A DNA stretch of 27,654 nt from a virus. Both the position numbers and the translations under genes were made by a program. The notes below the pieces were generated by a model that worked only from the letters and a program-made list of their open reading frames with translations, was not told the DNA's origin and did no database searches. Numbering within the stretch: the first letter of the stretch is position 1; the number at the start of each line of letters is the position of its first letter. The stretch covers positions 1 through 27,654 of the IMG/VR virus record IMGVR_UViG_3300046004_001612; one strand, given 5' to 3'. Positions 2 through 24,845 of this stretch are shown here, piece after piece.

Positions 2-2137
2 CTACTACAAAATAATGAGATTAGTGGGTTATCTACTGATGATATTATTGTATATAGAAAGAAGCTACTTGAGAAATATTTAGGAGCAGATTTACACTAT
101 ATAGATACTAGTAATAACACTACTGTAGCAGGTATATTAGTTAGAGCTGAAACACCTTCTAATAATATTAATAATTTACAGCAAGCAAATACAGCTGCTG
201 TGCAGTCTAATGAAGCAATATTACTCAGAAATTTAGGATTATTTTTTAATACTGATAGTCAGGGTATATTTCAATTAAACGCCAATAATTTTACGTATAG
301 TATTGATTATACTAAACTCGAGCCCGATAAAATTTATATATTCCCTGATCCTAACAAATACGGGAACGTAACGATTAATAACCAAATAGATTATCCGTTA
401 ATATACATCTATGATTATAGATATGATGTAAATAATGTATCGAGTGGATTTGCAAGCGGAGTACCTAAAATAAACAGTAGTGATCAAACATTCTCTCCTT
501 ATTATGCTTCAGAGCAGTCATATACTCAATCTATAACAAATGATATAAATTTAAATTTTAGTGATTTATACAATAAAGGTTATATAACAGCATTACAGTA
601 TGATGTATATGGTAATAGCTATGCATTATTTAAAGATGAGTTAGGACATACCTTTAAACCGGTAGAAACTCTAGAAGATGAAGCTATTAAAAGTTTACTA
701 CTTGACGGTCACGTATTTCGAGATGATATAGAAGGTGTAAATTTTAATTATAGCACTGTTTCTGTAGTCGGTGACACTTTTAGAAGCGGTCTATCAACTA
801 ATACAATTGAAATAGGGAGTTTAAGTTCGAATAGCTATTCATCTTTCAGTCCACCTTATTATACACTATTCTTTAGAGAATTTACACCATATATAGAATT
901 ATTACAAAGTTCAAGAAATATAATACCAAAAATTAGAGATGCAGGCGAATTTACATTTGCAGATAATGTAGCATTACCTGATAGTTATTTTACAAGTAGT
1001 TCAAGCTATGATGCTGGTAATTACTACTATAATGAATTAGCTGAGGGTGGAGTTATAAGCTTAGATCCTCTGTTACGAGTGATAGACACATCAACAACAT
1101 TATCTGCATCTTTTGGTTACGATGTACGGCTTGTTTTATCTGCCACTAATGTTGAAGAATATAATTGCGGCTATTATAGCGATGAAGTGATTATATTAAA
1201 TGATAATATCTATAGAGATCAAATTCCGTTTATTAACACTGTTCCTGATTATGGGTTAACAATACTATCTACTATATCAGGTATAAATGAATTAAAGATA
1301 CAGGCTGAAAAAGATCGACTACAAGGTAGTATTTTTGTACAACAAGGTACAAGTACTTTATCTACACCTATATCTACTGCTCTGTCTAATACGTTTAGTA
1401 AGTATAGCGCATCAGTAAAAACAGAAGTATATACTGCGGCTAAGAGCTTAGAGATTTATTATAATACAATCTGTATAGAAACACCTAATTATCTTGTTTT
1501 TGATAAAGTTCTGTATGAAGATGGTAGTTTTCAAAAACCATCTACTTCTAATCTTGTATATTCGATTAGCTCAAGCTCTACTTTACAGGCGTTTTCTAAT
1601 AGATTGTTTATTGAAAAGGATAAAACAGTTACATTCTGTGTTATGTATCCAAGGATACAGTCTCTATCAGGTCTTATAACAGAAAATACTGTTGAAAACA
1701 GTATTAAAATTTATAATAATAACAATAAAATTTTTATACCAGATATATATCAATATAACATTACTGATAATATTACTGAGAAAATATTCCCATTCACTTC
1801 TCAAATACCTAGTATATCAAGTGCGTTTACTCTATCTTCTGAGTTTAACAGTGAAACAAACTTTAATATAGTAAGAATTCAAAAACCTATACTAACTTAT
1901 AATTCACTAAACGATATATATAAGTTAACTTATATATGTATTGATAATAACAATCTTTTCCATCTACTTGATTACAGCTTTAAAATTGATCAAAATAAAG
2001 TTGTTACGTTTATTGATTGTAAGTATTATGATCATAATAATACTGTAAGGACGTCAGATTTTGTTAATTTTACGTTTGCAACTATAAAATCTAATTTAGG
2101 TACATATGCTTTATCCGGAAATCAAATCATAATATGA
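2..2137 (+). CDS. Large virion structural protein, 5' truncated by window edge
   Basis: The frame is open from base 2 without a stop, so the gene begins left of the window; the first in-frame GTG (position 200) is not needed as a start. The visible part is about 711 residues, rich in Asn, Ser, Thr and Tyr, with no cysteine-rich or enzymatic motif, signal peptide or membrane segment. The composition and the run of beta-prone segments fit a phage tail or baseplate-associated structural protein. I do not recognise a family. Its stop overlaps the next start (ATGA at 2134), so the two are probably translationally coupled. The place at the head of a late tail-fibre block supports a virion role; the exact part of the particle is unknown. 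Confidence 0.75.
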   Translation, partial: LLQNNEISGLSTDDIIVYRKKLLEKYLGADLHYIDTSNNTTVAGILVRAETPSNNINNLQQANTAAVQSNEAILLRNLGLFFNTDSQGIFQLNANNFTYSIDYTKLEPDKIYIFPDPNKYGNVTINNQIDYPLIYIYDYRYDVNNVSSGFASGVPKINSSDQTFSPYYASEQSYTQSITNDINLNFSDLYNKGYITALQYDVYGNSYALFKDELGHTFKPVETLEDEAIKSLLLDGHVFRDDIEGVNFNYSTVSVVGDTFRSGLSTNTIEIGSLSSNSYSSFSPPYYTLFFREFTPYIELLQSSRNIIPKIRDAGEFTFADNVALPDSYFTSSSSYDAGNYYYNELAEGGVISLDPLLRVIDTSTTLSASFGYDVRLVLSATNVEEYNCGYYSDEVIILNDNIYRDQIPFINTVPDYGLTILSTISGINELKIQAEKDRLQGSIFVQQGTSTLSTPISTALSNTFSKYSASVKTEVYTAAKSLEIYYNTICIETPNYLVFDKVLYEDGSFQKPSTSNLVYSISSSSTLQAFSNRLFIEKDKTVTFCVMYPRIQSLSGLITENTVENSIKIYNNNNKIFIPDIYQYNITDNITEKIFPFTSQIPSISSAFTLSSEFNSETNFNIVRIQKPILTYNSLNDIYKLTYICIDNNNLFHLLDYSFKIDQNKVVTFIDCKYYDHNNTVRTSDFVNFTFATIKSNLGTYALSGNQIII

Positions 2138-2757
2138 AAAATATTAGTATATATTACAATTTAACAAGTACTACAGGAGATAGGCAGAGTATACTACCTG
2201 TCGTTTCTGTTAAAGGTAAGACTACAATAACGTTTGTACTTACTGGTATAAATGAATCGCGTAATTACGCTACTTATCTCACTATTAACTACGGTGATTC
2301 GACTGAGAGTATCAATGTGCAGAAAGATTTAGTATACGATTATAAGAATAAAAGTATTTTTAATGAAGTTCTCTTTGATAAAGCAGGAGGCACAATAATG
2401 AGTACATATGAAAATATATATTCAAATGAGACATCAAACTTTAACAGTCCTCTTACAGCTCAGTTTTTAATTACCTTTAGAGACGGCAGTAAGACATTAT
2501 TTATACAGCCACTTAATATATATAACGCATCGTATTATGATGAAATCGGTGAATTGAGTATAACTAATAGTCAGATATCTCCGCTATCTACGAGTAATAC
2601 ATTTATTAACTTTGAAGGTAAGTTAAATAAACAAACATACGTCGGTATTTTACTATCATCGACATTAGAAGATTACTATCAGTTAGTTGATCAGAGTAGT
2701 ACATACTACCTAGTATCACCACAAGATAGTTACGTATATCCTACTCATTCAGTATAA
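2134..2757 (+). CDS. Small beta-rich virion-associated protein, function unknown
   Basis: A 207-residue protein starting with ATG inside the ATGA overlap with the preceding structural gene. Residues about 20-60 look like an Ig/PKD-type beta-sandwich (alternating hydrophobics around TTITFVLTGI and an INYGDST turn), and the rest is also Ser/Thr/Tyr-rich and beta-prone. There are no catalytic motifs. Tight coupling to the large upstream protein suggests a partner or chaperone for the same tail substructure. This is inferred from position and composition only; no family was recognised with certainty. Confidence 0.65.
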   Translation: MKNISIYYNLTSTTGDRQSILPVVSVKGKTTITFVLTGINESRNYATYLTINYGDSTESINVQKDLVYDYKNKSIFNEVLFDKAGGTIMSTYENIYSNETSNFNSPLTAQFLITFRDGSKTLFIQPLNIYNASYYDEIGELSITNSQISPLSTSNTFINFEGKLNKQTYVGILLSSTLEDYYQLVDQSSTYYLVSPQDSYVYPTHSV

Positions 2758-2794
2758 CTTATACATACTCTCGACTAAATAAAATTATAACACA

Positions 2795-4501
2795 ATGCCA
2801 TTAGCTAATACACCATTACCACTCTCTACTGATGCTTGGGCACTAGTAACTGCAGCAAATAACACGGAGATTAGATCTACCATAGGCTTAGGTGGTTCTA
2901 GAAACAATGAACGCAATGTGCAGACACAGGCACAGCTTCAAGCCGCATTTGCAGAGGCTGGTGCTTTGATTATCTACGTACGAGCAGATATTACTTTAAG
3001 TACCGTTTTAACGATGGGCTCCGATAAGACCTTAGTTATGGATAACTTCCGTTTTATACAGGGAGTTTCTGGTGGTCTTATCCTTATGGGAGTAGTTGTG
3101 GCAGATCGTCGCTGCATCTTCTCCGGATTTCAACCAGGAGAAATTTCTGGCAGCTTTGGTCAAGCGGCAGTCTTTCCTGAGTGGTGGGGTCTTACTGATG
3201 GTTATCACGATATTGCAATCAATTGTGCGGTAAAAGCTAGTCGTTTGGCTACTAGTGGATTTGGTCTTAAGGTCTCGTTAGCAGCACGTGTTTACGATGT
3301 ATCTGCTCCTATTGACTTATCAAGCACAGCAGTTACACTAGAGGGAGCAGGATCTAATCTTACTTTCGTACGAGCAACCACTGCATGGACACCGACATGG
3401 ATTAAGGCCGAAGTATGGGGAGCAGCCGGAGATCCTGCAAACCATGCGGCAATGATTTGGATTGGTGCTGGGCTTGGTAGTAGTAGTAGCTACCGTACTA
3501 AGGTCAAAGGGATGGAGATTGAATGTTACAATGCTTCATACACTCACCGAGCTGACGGCTTAAAGAGAGTCTCAGGTATCTCATCACAGACTGGAGTAGA
3601 AGAGTGCTCTGTCATTACCGACGTACAGATTTCCAATGCCTCAGGATTTGGTATTGGGTTCTGTCGACACAAAGCACCTGGAGGCTCGTTTGCCGCAGCA
3701 ACAGTCAACGGGTTAGATATTTCATCATCTTGGATTACTGGTGCCACATTTACAGATTTTTATGGGCTGTATTTCTCACAATGGACGAACAACTGTACTG
3801 TTCGTAATGTTACAACGGATCTAGGTCTTGCTAAGTCTATTAGCTCTCAGTATGGTACGAATACCTCACCCGCTAATGGGGGATCCGATACGACTGTAAT
3901 TGGAACAACGATATATCCAACACCAGCATGGATTTGCACTTATCCGCACACAGCTATCTATGCGGCTGGATATCTCACCTTGAGCGACATTCATATTGAG
4001 GGATCGGTAATTGGTGTTTTCATTCCTGAGACAGATGGCGCTAGTAATGTGGTCGCGACTAATGTTAAGGGTTTCGCTCTAATGGATCGAGCTCGTAGCG
4101 CAGTCTATGAACTTGATGGAAAGAGTGGTGCTGAACCTCCTACAAACACAGACGTATACGGTTACGGTTGTGTTGTTCTGATTGCTGGTCGTAGTGAAGC
4201 ATTAGCATATCCTACATTAAACTGGAAGGGCTGCGCAACTTTGACTGCTATTAGTACTGATGGTAGTTGCTGCTATCTTATGCGTGATGCTGCTTACGGC
4301 ATCCACCGATCCATGTATGGTATGGGTCAGTTTCCTCTCGGAGGCCTTGGAGGTCGTTTCTCCTTTTATACTAGAGGAAATATTTATTCCAGATCAACTA
4401 CTAGTCCTTACGACTACATAGACGGTGGAACTTACGATCCAGCTAACCCATCAAGCGCGCAAAGCACGTCTCGTACTTTCTTCATCGGTCCAATATACTG
4501 A
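2795..4501 (+). CDS. Pectate-lyase-like beta-helix tailspike
   Basis: A 568-residue protein with the layout of phage tailspikes. A short N-terminal linker (WALVTAANNTEIRSTIGLG) is followed by a segment at about 40-125 resembling the start of pectate-lyase-superfamily tailspikes, with an FPEWWG motif near residues 128-133. A long repetitive region rich in short beta strands and Asn/Gly/Ser turns then fits a right-handed parallel beta-helix. Such proteins trimerise and bind or cut host surface polysaccharide. The base composition differs sharply from its neighbours: 33 of 60 bases are G or C at 3421-3480, against 11 of 60 at 5041-5100 in the next gene. The flanking spacers are AT-rich again. 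This suggests acquisition of a host-range cassette from a higher-GC phage. The catalytic residues and the substrate cannot be named from the sequence. Confidence 0.8.
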   Translation: MPLANTPLPLSTDAWALVTAANNTEIRSTIGLGGSRNNERNVQTQAQLQAAFAEAGALIIYVRADITLSTVLTMGSDKTLVMDNFRFIQGVSGGLILMGVVVADRRCIFSGFQPGEISGSFGQAAVFPEWWGLTDGYHDIAINCAVKASRLATSGFGLKVSLAARVYDVSAPIDLSSTAVTLEGAGSNLTFVRATTAWTPTWIKAEVWGAAGDPANHAAMIWIGAGLGSSSSYRTKVKGMEIECYNASYTHRADGLKRVSGISSQTGVEECSVITDVQISNASGFGIGFCRHKAPGGSFAAATVNGLDISSSWITGATFTDFYGLYFSQWTNNCTVRNVTTDLGLAKSISSQYGTNTSPANGGSDTTVIGTTIYPTPAWICTYPHTAIYAAGYLTLSDIHIEGSVIGVFIPETDGASNVVATNVKGFALMDRARSAVYELDGKSGAEPPTNTDVYGYGCVVLIAGRSEALAYPTLNWKGCATLTAISTDGSCCYLMRDAAYGIHRSMYGMGQFPLGGLGGRFSFYTRGNIYSRSTTSPYDYIDGGTYDPANPSSAQSTSRTFFIGPIY

Positions 4502-4582
4502 ACAGTACAGCTATAGATTTTAGAATACTATAGTACGTTATCTTATAATTTATAGAGTAACCTATTGTTTTAAGTTTTGGTT

Positions 4583-4590
4583 ATTAAATA
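4583..4590 (+). promoter_or_regulatory. Late-promoter-like box (ATTAAATA)
   Basis: ATTAAATA lies 6 nt before the GTG start at 4597. It is a variant of the T4/cyanophage late box NATAAATA. It lies in the 95-nt gap after the tailspike gene, which otherwise holds only weak AT-rich dyads. Confidence 0.4.
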
Positions 4591-4596
4591 ATTAAA

Positions 4597-7500
4597 GTGA
4601 CTACTCTTCAAAAATATAGCGTTTCATCTATATATACGCCTTTTGCTGTATATAGCGATCCATTCTTTTCGTATAAACAAAGAAGTATTTCTTATGAAGA
4701 AGGTTTTAAATTCACAGAGATAGATGCACTTTCTGGTGTCTATGATAGTTCTATAAACAACTATACATCTCATTACTTAACTGGCAAAAAAAATATTAGT
4801 GATATTTTTAGGATACTCACAAAAGAAGATACAATTAACACTTTAACAACGTCGTTAATTTTTGATAGCTTAAATTCATCTAGAGATTTACAAGTTAACA
4901 AGTGTTTATATACCTTTAAACAGAGTACTTCTTCATATAGAGATGATATTAAACCAGCAGGTGTATATGCTATACCTATTAATATTGTTGATAATAGTGC
5001 TATTTTTGAATTAGAGTTTATAAACGGTAAATATGTAAGAATAAAGCATAATAATGGAATAGCAGATTATTATTTAAATTACACTAATAATAGTATTTGT
5101 TTTTATAATTATGAAAGTAATCCACAGACGATAACAGATGAAAGAAATGATATGTTTACGTTTGAAATAGACGATAGTGGATATTTAACTCTATATAAAA
5201 ATATTAGTAGTAATGATACACGTGTCTTAATATATGATAATGATAAACTATCTTTTGATACTGTTAAAGAGGGTAAAGTAATTTCTAGAGTTAATAGTTT
5301 AATTAAAATAGATTATAACTATAAAAGTATACAATATAAATCAGGCACAAGCTGGATAACATATGATACTACTCGTATAAATGACTTAATAGCTAATGAG
5401 GAAAAGAGTGTATATGACTTAAAATCTCAATATTTACTACATACTAATTACAATACTTCTTTAAGTACTATTGATTTAAATTATGTTACATTAAACAATC
5501 AGCGATCAGAGAAAAATTATATAAAGAGTGGTACAAACATGCTTATAGGTAATGTAAATCACCCTGATGTAGATTTTCGGGAATATACTAGTATATTCAC
5601 AGGTAATGATCAAGAAGGTGGAAATAGCAAGATAGCATTAAATTATGTTTTCTATAATAAAGATATAATAATACAAAATGGTACAGATACATTTTTTAAA
5701 GCACCATCAAGTATATATCCTTACGATAAGGTTAATATAAATGACACAGATTTTGTGCAAAATGGGAGTTTAGGAGGTACATCACCGCTTGTTTCAGATA
5801 AGATTTATGTAAATCAAAAGTATACTACACAGAATAATAATGGTAGATATATGTGTACTTGGTTATCAGCAGAAAATCCTGGATCATACGGTATATGGGT
5901 AGACAGATATTATGATGAGAGTGCCAATGTAGATACTCCTATAATAGATTATAAAAGCTCTTTAGCTATAGAACCTAATGTTTCATATAAATACGAACGT
6001 TTAGGAGAAGCAGATGTTAATAATTTAATTAATAATAGTAATCCTATTGCGAATGGGTTCCCGTTTATATATGATATAAACAATGTTCAATCAGCGTATA
6101 CCGGTACTGAAGTAATATATGACGGTACGAATTATAGCAAATACTTAGTTGCAGCAGAGGTGAATAAAACTAATCAATTTACAATATCGTTTGATATTTA
6201 TATTCAGCCTGATAAAGACTACGGATTTCAGCTACTCGGTAATAAAACAAACGCTGGATTTGGTGTTAGAAACAATCAAATTATAACACCGTTTATATAT
6301 ACATATAGTGGTAATACGCTATATGTATATAATAGTGATTATACTTTAATAACAACGAGTGTATTTAGCTCAGATATAAAAGATATTATTATATATGAAC
6401 CTCTACAAGACTTTTTTGTAATATGTACAGGTGGTCGAATATATAAGTTAAACGCTCAAGCAAATAAAATAAAATTCGAAACAATCCCTAATCTTAATAA
6501 TTATATTAATTATTTACAAGAAAAAGATAGAATTACATTCTTAACTTCGAGTTCAGGTAGCTGCATAGAGGTTGATCTTAAGACATTACAACCAACTACC
6601 GTATCGAATGCCATATCGTTTGACAATTATAGGGATACAAATTACGATTATGCAAAGAGCTTAATTAGATATAATGATACTTTATTATACTTACCTGGTG
6701 AAAGGGTAAAGTATGAAGGATATGGTTCAAATTATATATTTTATACTGTACGTGACGCTAATCTTATAAAGCATAATTTACTTAATAATGAAGCTGAGGT
6801 GTTTCTTATTAGTCAGAGTAGAATTACTGACTTTAATATAGATAGTAATAAAAATATATACATAGGTCATAATAATAAGATTAGTGTATATACTACGCTA
6901 AGACAGTTTGTGTCTTCTTATGCTCTATCAGCTTATAGTCCTGTATTATCTGCTGGTGGTAAGATTTTAAATATTGACTTTGGTAAAGAATATACACCCA
7001 CATCAACTAATACATACGTTACCAACTTAGTAGCAGATCCTAATAATAATTTAAATGTTATTAAGTATAATACTACTGGTAACGCGTCAGTAGTATTTGC
7101 TAAATTAAGCGGAACAGGCAAGTATAGTGAATATAATAGTTTAACAGCAAGAAGATATACTCAAACTAATTACAACTACTTTAATAATATATACAAGCCT
7201 AAAAATATTAGCTTTGAATTAACATTAACTAATTATCTATCAAGTGAAGATATATTAGATACAAGTATAAATTTTGATACGTCTAATATTGATACTGGGT
7301 ACCATACTCTAACATATAGATTTGATTCATTACAAGGAAACATTACGTTATTTGTAAATGGTACAAGTTACACAACAATAAACGTATCACCAGGTAAATA
7401 TAAAATACAAAATATATTTAACGATGATTTATTTATTGGTACAACAGGCTTCTTTAACGGGATTGATCTTGCAACATATCTTAGACAACCTGGATATTAC

Positions 7501-7833
7501 TTTACTAAAGATTTTAGAATAAAAAATCTATTCATATATAATCGTCCAGTATCTAATGATACTGTTGCTGCTCTTACATTATTAGGTAAGAAAATTGATC
7601 AGTTAGTACTATCTATGCCAGCTGGTCAACGTAATAATCTCGAGCAGGTAGAAAGATTCTTTAAATTCTCACAAACGAATTCAAGTAAGCTTATTGATAT
7701 ATATATTAAAAACTTAAATATTACTAATATTGATTTTCGTAATAATATTATAAATAATATTTTAGCACAAGCAACTTCTTTACTACCTATTGGAGTAGCA
7801 ATAAACAACATAAACTTTGTAGATTATAAATGA
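4597..7833 (+). CDS. Giant tail/baseplate protein with LamG-like C-terminal region
   Basis: A 1078-residue virion protein, very Asn/Tyr-rich. Residues about 500-810 contain repeated short strands of the type seen in beta-propellers (for example IYKLNAQANK and NIYIGHNNKISVY). Residues about 820-985 look like a concanavalin/LamG-type domain, with HTLTYRFDS, NITLFVNGTSY, GTTGFFNGID and IKNLFIYNRPVS. The C-terminal 80 residues (VERFFKFSQTNSSKL onward) are helical and may be an attachment module. The GTG start at 4597 is chosen because a late-type box sits 6 nt upstream and no ATG precedes the conserved-looking N-terminus. The stop overlaps the next start (ATGA), so the two large proteins are probably made together. 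Likely role: baseplate or fibre structure with carbohydrate binding. Domain calls are by eye. Confidence 0.75.
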   Translation: MTTLQKYSVSSIYTPFAVYSDPFFSYKQRSISYEEGFKFTEIDALSGVYDSSINNYTSHYLTGKKNISDIFRILTKEDTINTLTTSLIFDSLNSSRDLQVNKCLYTFKQSTSSYRDDIKPAGVYAIPINIVDNSAIFELEFINGKYVRIKHNNGIADYYLNYTNNSICFYNYESNPQTITDERNDMFTFEIDDSGYLTLYKNISSNDTRVLIYDNDKLSFDTVKEGKVISRVNSLIKIDYNYKSIQYKSGTSWITYDTTRINDLIANEEKSVYDLKSQYLLHTNYNTSLSTIDLNYVTLNNQRSEKNYIKSGTNMLIGNVNHPDVDFREYTSIFTGNDQEGGNSKIALNYVFYNKDIIIQNGTDTFFKAPSSIYPYDKVNINDTDFVQNGSLGGTSPLVSDKIYVNQKYTTQNNNGRYMCTWLSAENPGSYGIWVDRYYDESANVDTPIIDYKSSLAIEPNVSYKYERLGEADVNNLINNSNPIANGFPFIYDINNVQSAYTGTEVIYDGTNYSKYLVAAEVNKTNQFTISFDIYIQPDKDYGFQLLGNKTNAGFGVRNNQIITPFIYTYSGNTLYVYNSDYTLITTSVFSSDIKDIIIYEPLQDFFVICTGGRIYKLNAQANKIKFETIPNLNNYINYLQEKDRITFLTSSSGSCIEVDLKTLQPTTVSNAISFDNYRDTNYDYAKSLIRYNDTLLYLPGERVKYEGYGSNYIFYTVRDANLIKHNLLNNEAEVFLISQSRITDFNIDSNKNIYIGHNNKISVYTTLRQFVSSYALSAYSPVLSAGGKILNIDFGKEYTPTSTNTYVTNLVADPNNNLNVIKYNTTGNASVVFAKLSGTGKYSEYNSLTARRYTQTNYNYFNNIYKPKNISFELTLTNYLSSEDILDTSINFDTSNIDTGYHTLTYRFDSLQGNITLFVNGTSYTTINVSPGKYKIQNIFNDDLFIGTTGFFNGIDLATYLRQPGYYFTKDFRIKNLFIYNRPVSNDTVAALTLLGKKIDQLVLSMPAGQRNNLEQVERFFKFSQTNSSKLIDIYIKNLNITNIDFRNNIINNILAQATSLLPIGVAINNINFVDYK

Positions 7834-9716
7834 TAAATTATACTAAATATAAAAAATTCTACACTTATGGAGGTGAGTTTTTACTAGATGGAGAGAATTA
7901 TATAGGTGAAGTGGAGATAAATGACGGAGATGTACATACATATCTAACTAATTATCCGCTTGATGTTCAGCAGTCATTCGCATCAGATATATTATTATCT
8001 GAATTAACATATGATAGACTAATATCTGATACAATTGCCTTACCTTATACATTAGATGATATAAGTGTAGGAGCTAATGATTATCTAACTTACAATCTTA
8101 TTAGTAATAAATTGCAGAAGTTGCATATAAATAATTCATATGTTTACTCTAGAATGTTTATTCCCAACAACGATTTACCTTCTTCTAGTAATGTCAGATT
8201 CATCGGACTATCAGGAATAGGTGATAGTCAGCTGTCTGCGACAAGGTTAGATCTGTATGATAACTATAATGAGACAATTCGGTTTAATAATAATCCTAAT
8301 TTTATAGATCTTGGTAATATTGTACATTGTGTATCAAAGCAGTACGAAGACAATATAGATAACTTTACTATATTTGGTATAACAAGTAGTAGTTTTGTAA
8401 GCTTATCTACTAATGGTATTGAAACAAACTATATAGAGATATCAAATAAAATAGAGACAGTAGAAAACGAGTTAACATTTGGAAAGCTAGAAAATATATG
8501 CTTAAATGATACTCACATATTTATATCAGACTCAGTTAATAATGTAATTATCAAATATGAGGTTGCTGGATACTATACTAACGATAGAGTATTAGCTAAT
8601 AAGCGTAACTTAATAGAATTAATAGGCGGAACAGGTAGTAGTACAGATCCTTCAAGATTTAATGCACCTACTTTTGTATGTTGTAATAATAGTGATCTAC
8701 TAGTGTATGATTCTGGTAACTATGTATGTAAAGTATTTAGTACTGAGTTTAATTATAAATTACGGATAGCTGGTCCACGATTTAAGAGTGAACCTTTAGC
8801 AGCAGCGGAGTATGATAAGTTAGAAAATAGACTTTATGTGTTAACATATTATAAAGATACATTAAAAGTCTATATTTATAATAGTGAGTATAAGTTACAG
8901 GAAACATATGTGTTGGATGAAAAGCTAACACAGGGTGAAAAAGTTAATAACATATCTTTCTCTAACAGTAATAACAACTATTGGCATATTTGTACTAACT
9001 TTAATGTTTATCAGCATTTAAAGAATCGACCCGATAAAATTGTAGGTAGATATCAAGCTAAACGTCTGTTTATAGAAGATGGTGATACTACTGAAACCAC
9101 TAATATATGGAATTATGTTGAAATACCATTTAAAAATGCTAATTTTTTATGGAATAAATTATCACCAGGTGGAGTAGTAGAGGATTCAGCATTTTTGAGT
9201 AATAGTTTTAAGAGTCTTAATATTATGGAGACATCATCAAGCTATGACAACGTAATCTTGCTTACTCCGTCTAGAATTTACATTTTTGATGAACCTTATA
9301 TATTTAAACGAGTAACAAAAGCTGAGAATTATGTAAATTATGGAATTAATAATTTTTCGCTCTCACCGCATGAATATATCCAAGCATCTACAATAAATAA
9401 AGAAGTTTATAAAATTGTTAGTGATTTACTAACAATTCAAAACAACTTATTAGGTAGATTTACCGGTTATTATGATTCTCGAAATATATTTACATTAACA
9501 GATTATAACTATAATATAGATTTAAGTAGTTTACCGATTATAGAACAAAATCAGTATTATATACATGAAAATGAAAAGAATATATTAGGTGTAGTCAATC
9601 GTATGTTATCAAATATCTATAAGTTGCAGTATGAATTAGTTAATATAACTAATACCGATTACGGCAATAAACTTACACCTATATTCACATTATCAGGTAC
9701 ATTAGTAATAGATTAA
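7830..9716 (+). CDS. Large tail/baseplate protein with NHL-like propeller region
   Basis: A 628-residue protein whose ATG lies in the ATGA overlap with the 1078-residue gene. The N-terminal 130 residues are a compact mixed region (YGGEFLLDGENYIGEV, then IALPYTLDDI). Residues about 215-300 resemble NHL/SMP-30-type propeller blades, with ENICLNDTHIFISDSVNN, then an LIGGTGSS segment and LLVYDSGNYVCKVF. Further blade-like repeats run to about 500, and the last 100 residues are helical. Beta-propellers in phage tails usually serve as scaffolds or glycan-binding surfaces. No enzyme motif is visible. Coupling to the preceding gene suggests they assemble in the same tail-tip or baseplate structure. 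Confidence 0.72.
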   Translation: MINYTKYKKFYTYGGEFLLDGENYIGEVEINDGDVHTYLTNYPLDVQQSFASDILLSELTYDRLISDTIALPYTLDDISVGANDYLTYNLISNKLQKLHINNSYVYSRMFIPNNDLPSSSNVRFIGLSGIGDSQLSATRLDLYDNYNETIRFNNNPNFIDLGNIVHCVSKQYEDNIDNFTIFGITSSSFVSLSTNGIETNYIEISNKIETVENELTFGKLENICLNDTHIFISDSVNNVIIKYEVAGYYTNDRVLANKRNLIELIGGTGSSTDPSRFNAPTFVCCNNSDLLVYDSGNYVCKVFSTEFNYKLRIAGPRFKSEPLAAAEYDKLENRLYVLTYYKDTLKVYIYNSEYKLQETYVLDEKLTQGEKVNNISFSNSNNNYWHICTNFNVYQHLKNRPDKIVGRYQAKRLFIEDGDTTETTNIWNYVEIPFKNANFLWNKLSPGGVVEDSAFLSNSFKSLNIMETSSSYDNVILLTPSRIYIFDEPYIFKRVTKAENYVNYGINNFSLSPHEYIQASTINKEVYKIVSDLLTIQNNLLGRFTGYYDSRNIFTLTDYNYNIDLSSLPIIEQNQYYIHENEKNILGVVNRMLSNIYKLQYELVNITNTDYGNKLTPIFTLSGTLVID

Positions 9717-10633: not shown

Positions 10634-11722
10634 ATGCCTGATATAACGATTGTAAAGTTAAAAATAAGACGTGGTTCTAATGCGCAACGCCAGAGTGTTA
10701 TATTAGAGCAAGGAGAATTAGGATATGCAACGGATACAAAGCGGGTATTTGTCGGTGATGGCGTAATTTTAGGAGGAACAGCAGTAGGTAATATTGCACA
10801 TCCGCCCGGAACAACTACTAATTACAGGTTAACTCGTTCAACTGCTGTAGTGGGGGACATAGTTAAAGATCAAAGGTTATTATATCAGCTTACAAGCTCA
10901 GATTATACTCAGACCGGCTCATGGACTTTGTTAAGCCCTTCACCTGATAATTTAACCTTACAATATAATACTAATAATGAGTTAATTATTAAGAATAATG
11001 GCATAACTGGCATTAAATTTGATAGTACAGCAGCATATTATCGTGGAGGTCTAGTTGCTACTACGAATAATGGTCTATCTGCAGATGTTGATAACAGTAC
11101 TATTGTATTAAATGCTTATAATAATTATAAATTAGCAGTTGGAGTTTTAAATGCTGGTAATATATCGAGTTCAGTTTTAGGTAAAGGTTTAGAAGGAGGT
11201 AGCGGCAGTGTTATAAATGTTAACGAAGATCCTTCTATGTTTGGTTATAATGGATCTAATCAACTTACATTAACAGCTTTACCTCCAGGTATTGTAACAA
11301 CAACCTCATTAAGTAGTGGTAGTATTGGGGCTGGTTTATCAATAGCTAGTAATCAACTTATATCTACATTGCAGTCTGTAGATAATACGTCCTTAGAACT
11401 GGTGTCAGGTGCTGTTAAGTTAAAATCCATTACAACTGCTGGTACAACTGCATTTGAAAATGTAACTTATAATACATATGGGCAAATATTAAGTACTTCT
11501 TCTGTAGTGTATGAAAATTTATCTGGTAAAAATACAGGTACATCAGCACTATTTAACGGATATATTGATCAAGACACATTTACTAATCAAACACTACTAA
11601 CTGCAATGTCTGCAAACCCTGCTAATCCAGCAATATGGTCAACTGTAACATTAAGCTCAGCTGGATTTATGACGTTAGCTACTACTATGGGTAGAGTAGC
11701 TATACCTATCTTTAGTTATTAA
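10634..11722 (+). CDS. Tail fibre with Mtd-like N-terminal domain
   Basis: A 362-residue fibre protein. Residues about 7-52 form a domain with the pattern RRGSNAQRQ, GELGYATDT, FVGDG and GG. This pattern is widespread at phage fibre N-termini and resembles the N-terminal domain of the Bordetella phage major tropism determinant. The same domain occurs in the next gene, with 27 of 47 aligned residues identical, so both proteins probably dock to the same site. The middle is Gly/Ser/Asn-rich and beta-prone, and residues about 170-185 (LNAGNISSSVLGKGLEGG) also resemble a segment of the next gene. The C-terminus ends in a hydrophobic strand (GRVAIPIFSY). Late-type boxes precede the ATG. No enzyme motif is seen. 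Confidence 0.78.
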   Translation: MPDITIVKLKIRRGSNAQRQSVILEQGELGYATDTKRVFVGDGVILGGTAVGNIAHPPGTTTNYRLTRSTAVVGDIVKDQRLLYQLTSSDYTQTGSWTLLSPSPDNLTLQYNTNNELIIKNNGITGIKFDSTAAYYRGGLVATTNNGLSADVDNSTIVLNAYNNYKLAVGVLNAGNISSSVLGKGLEGGSGSVINVNEDPSMFGYNGSNQLTLTALPPGIVTTTSLSSGSIGAGLSIASNQLISTLQSVDNTSLELVSGAVKLKSITTAGTTAFENVTYNTYGQILSTSSVVYENLSGKNTGTSALFNGYIDQDTFTNQTLLTAMSANPANPAIWSTVTLSSAGFMTLATTMGRVAIPIFSY

Positions 11723-11733
11723 TATATAATTTT

Positions 11734-13449
11734 ATGCCGAAAAAAATAGAAATTCTCGAAAATACTCTGTTAAAACTACTCGTACGTAGAGGATCAGATG
11801 TAGATAGACAGCAAGTTGTATTATCAGAAGGTGAATTAGGATATACTACTGATACAGAACGGTTATATGTAGGTGATAATCAAAATCCAGGCGGTAATGT
11901 AGTAGGAAACCTCTTTAAAGGGTCAGTTGCAGATATCACAACATTATCTAATGTAGTTAGTGGAGATTTGGCATACTCCACGACTACAAGTAAGCTATAT
12001 AGATTAAAATATAGCGATAGTTCTAATTTAGCAAACTGGGAAGAGGTTGGAGGAGTTTATTCTGCTACTAATAATAGTATTGTTGTATCTAGTAATAATA
12101 CTATTAGTGTTGGCACTCTGTCTGCAGGTAACTTCTCTTTAAATGCCTTAGGAAATTCACTTGAACTTGATGCTAACAATAAAATATCTCTCAGCTCTAC
12201 TAATATTAAGACAAACAGTGTATCTACATATGATTCATCTTATTTAAAATTACCTGCAGGATTATCGATTAATTCGATTGATTATAACTGGCCAACTGGA
12301 GGAGTTGGTTCAGAATTAGTATTAACAACAGATATTAATGGTAATTTACAATGGAAACCGTCATTAGTTAATACAACATTATTTGTTACTGGTACTGCAG
12401 GTCAAATACCAGTAGGTACCATAATGCCGTTTGTATCAGCTGCTAATGCTCCAACAGGTTGGTTACTATGTAACGGTCAATTAGTATTAGGTTCTTCTTA
12501 TCCTTACTTATCTGCTGTTATTAAAACAACATTTGGAGGTAGTGCTACAAGTTTTAATGTACCTAATTTAATTAATAAGACAATATATGGTGTATCAAAT
12601 GATCCAGGTAGTTCAACTGTATACTCCCTTTGTGCTAAAACAACAAATATTGGTACCTTAAGTGCGACAGGCATGTTGTATATTATTAAAGCTGTGCCTG
12701 ATAAGATTGTACAGTCAACATTTACAGTTAATAATGGATTAACAGCAACTGTAAATGGTGTACCATTTACAGGAACCGCAGTATCTACTTTATCTGGTAA
12801 TTTAGCTGTAGGCTTACCTATTCTAGGTGAAGGAGGCATAGTTAGGAGTAAAGATGAAGACTTTGTGTTTGATATATATGGTCGGGTAACCGGCACTATA
12901 ACAGGTTCGTACACTAATGCTGGAGCTGTAACAGCATTAGCGCCACAAAATACTGAATTTGTCAATCATACATCACCTATAGTATTCTTTAAATCACCAG
13001 TAACTATATATCAAAAAGATGTAGGTCCAACAGGTAATACACTATATTCGTTTAGTACAGTGGTTACTGCATATCCATATATTACAGGTATAACAAACGG
13101 TATGGCAACATACACTTATCTTGCTACCGGATCCGCCGTTGCTCCTGCAGCATCAGTACCATATAATGCTAAGAATTTAATTATTCAGACATCTATAAGT
13201 AAGCATGCATGGGGTGCCGAGACTTTAGCTGCAGTTTATGCTGCTTTAAATACTAGTTTAACAGGTACTTCTAGTGAGTATCTATTAGCTACTTGTAGAG
13301 CTCAAGGAAGTTACGATCATCAAACTACTACAACACAGACATTTATTCCTTTATCTGCAAATAATGCAAATAATTTGATATTTACTCTTAGAATGCCAGC
13401 AAATCATATGTTTGATGCAACAATAAAAATCGTAGGATATACACTATGA
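11734..13449 (+). CDS. Tail fibre with Mtd-like N-terminus and phage tail-collar domain
   Basis: A 571-residue protein. Residues about 11-57 repeat the N-terminal docking domain of the preceding gene (RRGSDVDRQ, GELGYTTDT, YVGD). Residues about 224-285 are a clear phage tail-collar domain: IPVGTIMPFVSAANAPTGWL, then LCNGQLVLG, YPYLSAVI and FNVPNL. Collar domains occur in T4 gp12-type short fibres and many receptor-binding fibres. The C-terminal 280 residues are beta-rich without an obvious family and end in IKIVGYTL. Upstream, AATATATA lies 5 nt before the ATG, a degenerate version of the boxes at neighbouring genes. The stop overlaps the next small ORF. The likely role is a receptor-binding or short tail fibre. 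Confidence 0.85.
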   Translation: MPKKIEILENTLLKLLVRRGSDVDRQQVVLSEGELGYTTDTERLYVGDNQNPGGNVVGNLFKGSVADITTLSNVVSGDLAYSTTTSKLYRLKYSDSSNLANWEEVGGVYSATNNSIVVSSNNTISVGTLSAGNFSLNALGNSLELDANNKISLSSTNIKTNSVSTYDSSYLKLPAGLSINSIDYNWPTGGVGSELVLTTDINGNLQWKPSLVNTTLFVTGTAGQIPVGTIMPFVSAANAPTGWLLCNGQLVLGSSYPYLSAVIKTTFGGSATSFNVPNLINKTIYGVSNDPGSSTVYSLCAKTTNIGTLSATGMLYIIKAVPDKIVQSTFTVNNGLTATVNGVPFTGTAVSTLSGNLAVGLPILGEGGIVRSKDEDFVFDIYGRVTGTITGSYTNAGAVTALAPQNTEFVNHTSPIVFFKSPVTIYQKDVGPTGNTLYSFSTVVTAYPYITGITNGMATYTYLATGSAVAPAASVPYNAKNLIIQTSISKHAWGAETLAAVYAALNTSLTGTSSEYLLATCRAQGSYDHQTTTTQTFIPLSANNANNLIFTLRMPANHMFDATIKIVGYTL

Positions 13450-15093: not shown

Positions 15094-16114
15094 ATTAGAC
15101 TTTAACATAGGATTAGTAGGAGAGTATAAGGTAAAAATTACCAATAACAATGCTATAAAATTTGAAAGTGAATGGAGTAGGAATACTATCCTTTCTGGAG
15201 GATTAGTTTCTTTATATAACAACAATATTACTGATCTATTAGGCTATGTAGATTTCGGAACAAGTACTGATTTACAAGGGTCCTTAGGATATAAGCTTTC
15301 TGGTATTATTACACCGCAATCTGATAGTAACTTTATTAATGTTCAACGGACTACAGCGAATACCTATTACGAAAATTTAAGCACAGTCATACATTACAAT
15401 GTATATAGTACTATACCAGCAGCTGCAGATTTAGAATTAAATGAATTTGGTATAAAGAGTACTATAAATTCTAGTTCTTTTGCAAGGAATGTATTTGCTG
15501 AACCTATTTTATTAAGTAAAAACGATAGTCTGGAATTTATATACAGACTTAAATTAAATTGGAATACAAGCAGTAAAACATCTTTACAATTTGATACATT
15601 AGATAATTACACATACTATGTACCTATTACAAGTCAAGTATATCAAGTACCTTATGATGATAGAACATATAAATCTGGCAGTAAAATAATTCTTAGTAAA
15701 AATAATGAAAAGCTTCCACAGTTTGGTCGTAATTATCCTAACCCTGTAGTTTACGGCATAATAAATAAGCCATATTCTACTTTTAGTTCTACAGAATTAG
15801 GCGGTTCTATTAATAATACCACTCGTACATATACAGTATCAACAGCTTTTTATAATATATCCTCTACTCCACTCGGTATTTATAAAGATATTAATTCTTT
15901 GTTATTAACACGGGATGATACAGTAGATAAAGCGAGTAAATTCTTTATATCAAGATTAAAATTTCCGCTTGTATTATATCGTACACCTACTGCTAATTTT
16001 ACCTCACTCAATATTAACTGCGAGTGTTGTGAACCAACTGATATCTATACAGTAAGTTCAAGTTACGCAAACTTTTTTACTTACTATATAAATTATAGTT
16101 GGTCTGAAGCTTAA
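15086..16114 (+). CDS. Phage tail/virion structural protein
   Basis: A 342-residue protein starting MNKLDFNIGLVGEYKVKIT, with the ATG inside the end of the lectin-like gene. The first 130 residues follow a pattern common to phage tail proteins: GEYKVKI, then SGGLVSL, LGYVDFGTS and LELNEFGIKS. The remainder is beta-rich, with a CECCEP cluster near residue 310 that could be a metal or disulphide site. It is the last gene of the + strand structural block. Its TAA and the stop of the convergent glycosyltransferase share the palindrome TTAA (16111-16114). Virion role inferred from composition and context. Confidence 0.65.
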   Translation: MNKLDFNIGLVGEYKVKITNNNAIKFESEWSRNTILSGGLVSLYNNNITDLLGYVDFGTSTDLQGSLGYKLSGIITPQSDSNFINVQRTTANTYYENLSTVIHYNVYSTIPAAADLELNEFGIKSTINSSSFARNVFAEPILLSKNDSLEFIYRLKLNWNTSSKTSLQFDTLDNYTYYVPITSQVYQVPYDDRTYKSGSKIILSKNNEKLPQFGRNYPNPVVYGIINKPYSTFSSTELGGSINNTTRTYTVSTAFYNISSTPLGIYKDINSLLLTRDDTVDKASKFFISRLKFPLVLYRTPTANFTSLNINCECCEPTDIYTVSSSYANFFTYYINYSWSEA

Positions 16115-16929
16115 GCAAATAAACAAGCAAAGTAATATTCCCAGAGCTTATAATATTTAAGATACACGCCTGAAGTGTATATGTTTTTATTCCACGGCTT
16201 ATACTCAGCTCCTGTAAAGTGAATAATAGATTGTTGTGATGGAATATATTTAACGTACGGTTGACAGTTATATTTCCCAGGAATAGATTGATACTCTTGA
16301 TCGTATAAATTTAAAATAATCTCGTCATTGGTATACTCGCCATTATTTCGCTCGAATATATCTCTTATAAAATGAGCATATTCTTGTATATTAAATTTAT
16401 ATACATCATATACACAAACACCAGCATTAAATGTACTTTTATTTGCATTTGCAAGACTTAACAGGTTAGGAGAATTACTAAAATTTAAAATATGCTTATA
16501 TAAAAGCACATCTGTAGAAACAGCTGCAATTCCTTTATTAGATGTCGTAATATTAGAGTATAAATTACTAATATCAGAATTAAAAATTAATGTATCTACA
16601 TCTAACCATACAAGTCGATCATTTTTATGTCGCTCTAGGGTAGGTATTACTAATCGATCTAAAGTAGCGAGACTAATCCATTCATGATTAGTTCCTGCTA
16701 CATCAATATTAAAAGTTTCACTAAAGCTAGGTATTACATTTACATGTACTTGACCAAAAAAGTTAAATAATTGAGGAAACTTACTCAGAGTATCTAATAT
16801 ACACTCTTTTGCATACTGAGTTGTTGTATATATGTAGAAAGTATACTTTAATTTTAAGGCATACAAGGCAAAAATATTAACTAAACTATAACGCCACTGA
16901 TTGTCATCAGTAATAGTAACAAATTTCAT
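16111..16929 (-). CDS. GT8-type glycosyltransferase
   Basis: A 272-residue protein with the hallmarks of GT-A fold family 8 (glycogenin/LgtC-like) enzymes, which move a sugar from a nucleotide-sugar to an acceptor. It has MKFVTITDDNQW at the N-terminus (donor-binding start), a DVD metal-binding motif at 110-112 in LVWLDVDTLIF, FNAGVCVYD at 167-175, NDEIILNLYDQ at 201-211, and IIHFTGAEYKPW near 235-246. The ATG at 16929 is chosen over an upstream in-frame TTG (16962). It begins the conserved GT8 N-terminus and avoids a 26-nt overlap with the preceding gene. It is last in a late-type operon (17944 to 16111), so it may glycosylate tail or capsid proteins or host surface glycans as virions form. 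Acceptor and donor are unknown. Confidence 0.82.
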   Translation of the reverse strand: MKFVTITDDNQWRYSLVNIFALYALKLKYTFYIYTTTQYAKECILDTLSKFPQLFNFFGQVHVNVIPSFSETFNIDVAGTNHEWISLATLDRLVIPTLERHKNDRLVWLDVDTLIFNSDISNLYSNITTSNKGIAAVSTDVLLYKHILNFSNSPNLLSLANANKSTFNAGVCVYDVYKFNIQEYAHFIRDIFERNNGEYTNDEIILNLYDQEYQSIPGKYNCQPYVKYIPSQQSIIHFTGAEYKPWNKNIYTSGVYLKYYKLWEYYFACLFA

Positions 16930-16936
16930 ATCAGTC

Positions 16937-17179
16937 TTAAATATTTCCGAGTAAAGTTTCAACAGTTAAGTCATGTTTCATAGAATGGAAACGTTCATCA
17001 ATATAGTTTTGAATTGCAAGAGGTTTAATCCAATTATCATTACTAGCTTTAATATTCCGCTCTTCACATGCTCTAGAAATAACATCTAACCCCTCTACTA
17101 AACACATCCACCGAACAAATTCATCGAATTGCATTGTCTTTGTAGTACCATCTTTTAAATCAAAACTAAACTGTTTCAT
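16937..17179 (-). CDS. Hypothetical protein (80 aa)
   Basis: An 80-residue soluble protein starting MKQFSFDLKDGTTKTMQFDE. An N-terminal beta hairpin is followed by helices (FVRWMCLVEGLDVISRACEE, then IQNYIDERFHSMKHDL). It lies 7 nt after the zinc-ribbon gene and 7 nt before the GT8 start, so it is part of the same transcript. There are no recognisable motifs and no family is known to me. It may assist the glycosyltransferase or the membrane protein, but this rests on position alone. Confidence 0.6.
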   Translation of the reverse strand: MKQFSFDLKDGTTKTMQFDEFVRWMCLVEGLDVISRACEERNIKASNDNWIKPLAIQNYIDERFHSMKHDLTVETLLGNI

Positions 17180-17944: not shown

Positions 17945-17949
17945 ATAAT

Positions 17950-17957
17950 TATTTATC
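17950..17957 (-). promoter_or_regulatory. Late promoter box GATAAATA
   Basis: On the - strand GATAAATA is followed by 5 nt (ATTAT) and the GTG at 17944. The 5-nt spacer is identical to the one before the ATG at 27614. It is divergent from the + strand box at 17963-17970, only 5 bp away. Confidence 0.58.
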
Positions 17958-24831: not shown

Positions 24832-24837
24832 TAATAT

Positions 24838-24845
24838 TATTTAGC
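24838..24845 (-). promoter_or_regulatory. Late-like box (GCTAAATA) before the DHH gene
   Basis: On the - strand GCTAAATA is followed by 6 nt (ATATTA) and the ATG at 24831. It departs from NATAAATA in the second and third positions but keeps the spacing. Confidence 0.3.

Follow-up and report, generated by a model that had tools for sequence, protein, structure and literature searches.

The stretch of DNA analyzed here (the window) is a virus record of 27,654 bases, representing a contig fragment derived from a metagenome. The virus is an AT-rich T4-like phage infecting bacteria, and the window encodes T4-type replication genes (DNA primase, DnaB-like helicase, single-strand binding protein, clamp and exonuclease). 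Its left half encodes tail proteins, for which family matches are few, and includes the gene of a putative tailspike (the spike), located between the flanking genes U1 and D1 (Table 1). In relatives, this position lies a few genes 3' of gp25- and gp6-like baseplate wedge genes, while fibres with Mtd_N and collar domains are encoded downstream in the window. Contigs and loci compared with the window are indicated by L numbers.

Table 1 Features of the spike locus (positions refer to the window unless a contig is named)
Feature	Position	Strand	Remarks
U2, second upstream flank gene	200..2137	+	frame open to left window edge, so incomplete
U1, upstream flank gene	2134..2757	+	207 aa; conserved through residue ~173
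U1 C-terminal extension ("tail")	2653..2757	+	~34 aa; non-homologous to its counterpart in close relatives; missing from 40/42 empty-slot relatives
TAAATAA, late-promoter-like motif	2776..2782	+	19 nt 5' of spike start
Spike gene	2795..4501	+	568 aa; body (residues ~37-568) foreign by homology and codon use
Short N-terminal anchor-like piece of spike	2795..2902	+	36 codons; native-like codon usage; ends IRSTIGLGG
Downstream edge of swapped stretch	4539..4596	+	close-relative homology resumes, just 5' of D1
D1, downstream flank gene	4597..7833	+	1078 aa; 89% identical in close relatives
D2, flank gene after D1	7830-9716
Long-U1 homologues	L011:9938-10582, L013:8938-9588, L022:166-3129, L023, L088

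Neither U1 nor D1 gave a convincing PHROG or Pfam family match, and D1 and the 44-aa N-terminal piece had no match in named phages. Relatives of U2 are encoded by two large contigs (L079 and L088) which also carry a T4 portal, a gene that was found in none of the six shorter related records examined together with them. Two more candidate receptor-binding proteins with Mtd_N domains are encoded at 10634-11722 and 11734-13449, the second having in addition a tail collar domain. At 16111-16962 on the minus strand there is an ORF which by eye is small and glycosyltransferase-like, which has no PHROG match, and which is similar to an ORF 3' of the tail genes in L026:21868-22671. In L014:10423-14575, D1 is apparently present in two frames, split at an STTT repeat run, the cause being a misassembly, slippage or a genuine frameshift. 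The motif TAAATAA is found 5-19 nt 5' of seven gene starts including that of the spike (at 2776, 4585, 9723, 10620 and 13605 on the plus strand, and at 17949-17955 and 24837-24843 on the minus strand), its total of 32 occurrences in the window being at chance level (29.5). It looks like the core of a T4-type late promoter, judged against the T4 late promoter consensus.

The first-pass annotation, made from the sequence of the window, described the spike as a self-contained beta-helix protein, which is likely rather than proven. The beta-helix family PF20585 scores 17.3 bits in the window protein, under its cut-off of 24.3 bits; it is matched below an E value of 1 in four of the seven family members, and the distant L103 homologue just reaches 24.5 bits. 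Structure models predicted from four and seven sequences were poor (pLDDT 45), being confident only at residues ~40-100, and the matches returned by a fold search from them are weak hints for that reason. Many of these weak Foldseek matches are to beta-helix lyases and tailspikes; E values against the PDB are at least 0.011, and one BFVD match (1.6e-4) bears the name right handed beta helix region. As to glycan binding or cleavage, acidic and other polar residues are conserved across seven homologues. The spike is located among tail genes and its homologues carry tail-fibre N-termini, that of the L002 homologue matching the phrog_1640 tail protein with an E value of 2.2e-8. The spike is probably a protein with a right-handed beta-helix, which would bind a surface polysaccharide and probably cleave it.

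The gene stands out as a GC-rich island in an AT-rich genome, as the first-pass annotation had proposed: recounting reproduced its three G+C values exactly (26 of 60 at 2941-3000, 33 of 60 at 3421-3480 and 11 of 60 at 5041-5100), and the spike gene has a G+C content of 45.5%, versus 30.8% for the rest of the window. Among 450 windows of 1707 bp lying wholly outside the gene, none exceeds 36.1%, the highest value. At third codon positions, the G+C fraction (GC3) of the spike is 0.333, versus a mean of 0.196 (sd 0.030, range 0.154-0.259; z 4.6) over the 19 remaining genes that encode 150 aa or more.

Homologues of the spike were detected in eight contigs at 41-59% identity (tblastn), with weaker matches in 11 more loci, and no homologue was found among 50,697 named phage records, nor a match among solved structures; scans of contigs with spike patterns gave no match either, an absence which is weak since the patterns are short. 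The G+C content of the homologue loci is 54-61% in seven of the eight contigs and 41.9% in L101 (the G+C figures leave out L105-L109 and L111-L113, and L104 was left out of the spike table since no open frame covers the position tested). A T7-type head-tail connector, indicative of a podovirus type, is present in four of the ten records tested (L002, L003, L015 and L018). Similarity to the window spike begins at residue 36-42, the exceptions being L016 and L017, for which a weaker N-terminal stretch also aligns, and the N-termini of the homologues differ among L002/L003/L015/L018, L004, L016/L017, L101, L103 and L110. In a tree of ten cores, the window spike groups with L015 (support 96/97) inside a clade with L002, L003 and L004 (93/97), all of 54-58% G+C, with L101 placed outside. 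The spike homologue at L104:6001-7869, located in a 192-kb T4-portal contig, is not covered by one continuous open frame where tested, in contrast to its near relative L103, and may be broken. An origin of the nearest homologues in the same phage lineage, which had been named as evidence against capture, is thus not what is observed: they belong to other lineages of 54-61% G+C. The capture of a receptor-binding or depolymerase-type gene from another phage group is supported; its recency, argued from an unadjusted composition, is not. As for direction, a common donor pool fits as well as transfer from a podovirus to the T4-like phage.

With respect to age, the core has a similar G+C fraction at its first and second codon positions across the higher-G+C family members (0.49-0.54), and it is the third positions that differ. 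Core GC3 is 0.340 in the window spike, versus 0.537 in L002, 0.570 in L004, 0.627 in L015 and 0.689 in L016, with 0.346 in L101, 0.167 in L110 and 0.191 in the other genes of the recipient. Across 313 codons specifying the same residue, the third position is G or C in L002 and A or T in the window in 106 cases, the reverse being true in 39. The nearest homologue is only 62% identical in the core alignment, and the third positions lie midway between those of the high-GC relatives and those of the phage (~0.19), so that the earlier proposal of a capture too recent for composition to have adjusted is not supported. Either the spike has moved well over half way to native GC3, or the donor was a mid-GC phage (~42% G+C) like that of L101. 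The latter would permit a very recent, unadjusted capture from a donor of ~42-45% G+C, for which amelioration would be unneeded. In L101, a 173-kb contig, the homologue has nearly the values of the window spike (44.1% G+C, GC3 0.339), and among the codon backgrounds tried that of L101 fits the window spike best, if weakly (0.043, versus 0.010 for its own phage). Against this, the tree groups the window spike with the 54-58% G+C phages, and the L101 spike is only 42% identical (tblastn), so that we consider such a capture rather unlikely.

An elevated G+C content may also arise without any transfer, purely as an effect of the richness of spikes and fibres in glycine, alanine and threonine. Much of the island is of this kind: the spike protein rewritten in the phage's own codons already has a G+C content of 40.4%, and therefore about 65% of the G+C excess is due to amino-acid composition, as is usual for fibre genes, only the remainder pointing to a foreign origin. 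As a control, seven relatives were examined in which the slot is filled or U1 is extended (of two near-duplicates among them, not both were tabulated). Their main slot genes have 36-44% G+C within loci of 30-40%, that is, above their own loci, and a GC3 within -0.09 to +0.04 of the native expectation: +0.016 and +0.035 for the 950-aa and 1422-aa ORFs of close relatives, -0.012 for the L013 fibre and +0.042 for its 141-aa neighbor, +0.024 for the 517-aa ORF of L022, -0.042 for the 601-aa ORF of L023, +0.020 for the 261-aa ORF of L071, and -0.087 for the 318-aa ORF of L088. A 58-aa ORF in L023, at +0.223, is an exception too short to weigh. Similarly, the spike homologue of L110, an AT-rich T4-portal phage (locus 31.5% G+C), is fully native in its GC3 of 0.174. 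As a high G+C content is ordinary in slot genes, with GC3 near expectation, the foreign signal lies in codon use and not in raw G+C. In the window spike, 188 of 567 codons end in G or C, where native codon usage would give 111 (sd 8.4; maximum of 2000 simulations 139), an excess in GC3 of +0.136 (~5 sd) which is unique to this gene among the main slot ORFs compared. Together with the absence of the gene from close relatives, this excess largely refutes protein composition as the sole cause, which we regard as improbable.

All contigs found to be closely related, three in number, are 85-89% nucleotide-identical to the window on both flanks, and in place of the window spike have ORFs of 950 or 1422 aa, which are 69% identical to each other over 873 aligned residues before diverging, and which have no significant similarity to the window spike. 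The composition shift had been reported to coincide with the gene limits, and the composition edges do fit these within ~60 bp, but homology to the three contigs ends earlier, at 2653 inside U1, and is regained at 4539 (two contigs) or 4566 (one contig). In addition, the first 36 spike codons are native-like in usage (codon log-likelihood 0.299 versus -0.009, permutation p 0.0088), only 2 of 532 sliding windows being as high. No spike homologue was found in seven related records (the three close relatives and four others), among which there was no positive control, though the same search tool recovered the spike in the window's own record. Against capture, the first-pass annotation had set the case in which all close relatives share the gene with the same composition; here, three of three carry other, unrelated spikes.

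Wider relatives were gathered via D1 (44 loci) and U2 (34 loci). In the 51 distinct contigs having both U1 and D1, the gap between these genes is empty (17-54 nt) in 42 and filled in nine, with different genes, the U1-D1 position therefore being a host-recognition slot that is usually empty and variably filled. Outside these 51 are L071, in which no D1 was found, and 20 loci with U2 only, which have no U1 match and are not classifiable. Absence in relatives does not by itself polarize the swap, and this spike could in principle be ancestral in the slot and have been replaced in the close relatives; however, the slot is empty in the nearest outgroup (L066, 49% identical in U2) and in most others, and the spike body, with its foreign GC3, is more likely to have arrived late, making this order of events highly improbable. 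An island created by chimeric assembly of two viruses from the same metagenome is scarcely credible despite the metagenomic source of the contig and the sharp edges, as it needs two joins exactly where relatives also vary, and the spike frame is intact, with a native-type TAAATAA and native codon use in its first 36 codons.

The explanation that we favor, with a probability of roughly 0.85, is that a horizontally captured tailspike, putatively a beta-helix glycan-binder and intermediate in GC3, occupies a slot in the baseplate cluster of an AT-rich T4-like phage. Present at this place with its own composition, the spike is absent from the locus in three of three close relatives, which have it swapped for other genes, and its nearest homologues are in other lineages, on different anchors. 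The spike would be made late in infection, probably from its own TAAATAA-type late promoter, and would trimerize, as is usual for tailspikes. The short N-terminus would fasten it to the baseplate region, where the U1 tail may be the point of attachment; the spike would then bind, and likely cleave, a host surface glycan, such that its exchange would change the host or the glycan recognized. Following capture there would have been partial amelioration, unless the gene originated in a phage of ~42% G+C.

The anchor piece of the spike is not common to its closest homologues, which have other N-termini. An anchor common to the window spike and those of the close relatives was considered and rejected, their N-termini being dissimilar (p 0.36). 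A resemblance does exist between the window anchor and the start of a different L015 protein (p 0.0005), a pair picked after the motif IRSAIGLG had been spotted. In two phages with spike homologues, other ORFs (L004:2638-3609 and L015:10946-11905) have an N-terminal motif ending IRSAIGLG, compared with IRSTIGLG in the window. As the motif is also present in the L004 ORF and the L015 pair was chosen post hoc, the window anchor may represent a motif common to fibres in general and perhaps not native, native usage over 36 codons being weak evidence.

The length of U1 tracks the state of the slot. Where the slot is empty, U1 has 161-179 aa in 40 of 42 contigs (the exceptions being L026 with 193 aa and L066 with 211 aa), and where it is filled, U1 has at least 207 aa in nine of nine (Fisher p 1.8e-8, not corrected for relatedness); counted by D1 cluster (n=20), a long U1 is found in five of five filled versus two of 15 empty cases. 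In the window and in its close relatives, U1 homology stops at the point where U1 itself terminates in empty-slot relatives. In L022 and L052, U1 is extended to a 987-aa protein; in L022, this gene (L022:166-3129) is followed by a 517-aa ORF (L022:3185-4738), both with long TPTPTQT-type repeats, and then by several minus-strand ORFs before D1, the arrangement being the same in L052. Between the two close-relative types, the tail has three base differences in 123, all synonymous, versus 20 of 173 residues changed in the U1 body, and their spikes differ beyond the N-terminal part. Identity is also raised just around the tail in this comparison, and the low tail divergence may reflect recent recombination rather than selection. 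Random read-through would, by a rough base-composition estimate, reach the next stop after ~12 codons, which is shorter than the tails.

These patterns suggest the U1 tail as a candidate docking site that holds the spike. It is conceivable, though on balance doubtful, that U1 acts as a socket and that each spike gene is exchanged as a unit with a matching C-terminal U1 tail. Counter to docking, the tails are without a detectable common motif and two empty-slot contigs have a long U1. A docking motif seen by eye in the tails (Y-x-x-x-S/A-P ... P-T) was rejected, local alignments being no better than shuffles (p 0.35, 0.12 and 0.19), and nucleotide similarity between the upstream edge pieces was not significant (p 0.46). 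A U1-like tail was not found described in the literature searched, which is not proof of its being unpublished. Should the U1 tail serve for docking, it would provide a sequence rule by which an extra spike could be recognized in uncultured T4-like phages and its place of attachment predicted, and this second observation, of a tail tracking slot filling, may matter more than the captured spike. The spike itself is a clear natural example of one body present in T4-like and T7-like phages over a range of ~30-60% G+C, for which the exchange locus is seen in close relatives in both the filled and the refilled state, and it serves as a warning that a G+C contrast of fibre genes is not evidence of transfer unless corrected for amino-acid composition.

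Several elements of this locus are already established: spike domains exchanged between genera and between morphotypes (PMC10408124 and PMC10579305), second spikes docked by peptides (PMC6872550), and hypervariable host-recognition regions of aquatic T4-like phages (PMC7029224). In the tailspikes of E. coli phages (PMC10408124), the receptor-binding domain is exchanged across genera while the anchor is genus-specific, and the exchange edges are, as here, near the anchor end and in the noncoding stretch after the gene. The E. coli phages have conserved DNA motifs flanking the domain, in contrast to the upstream edge pieces described above, and the present transfer involves T4-like phages on one side and podovirus-type phages on the other, whose G+C contents differ greatly. 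Alteromonas phages (PMC10579305) likewise have one host-recognition module common to morphologically distinct phages; there, a cognate chaperone moves with the fibre, whereas no chaperone-like ORF adjoins the window spike. The Klebsiella anchor-branch depolymerases (PMC6872550) offer a parallel in that a short peptide at the N-terminus of a second spike can join it to another virion protein equipped with a docking domain. There, docking takes place on the T4 gp10-like domain of another receptor-binding protein, and here the candidate is the short C-terminal tail of U1; a T4 gp10-like docking domain with a conserved N-terminal peptide was not found, given the absence of family matches for U1 and D1 and of similarity among tails and spike N-termini. 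Lastly, pelagimyophages, which are AT-rich aquatic T4-like phages, have a hypervariable host-recognition region within their structural genes (PMC7029224); the island there is tens of kb in size and located between VrlC and gp14, whereas the position described here is a single-gene slot between two genes of the baseplate region.
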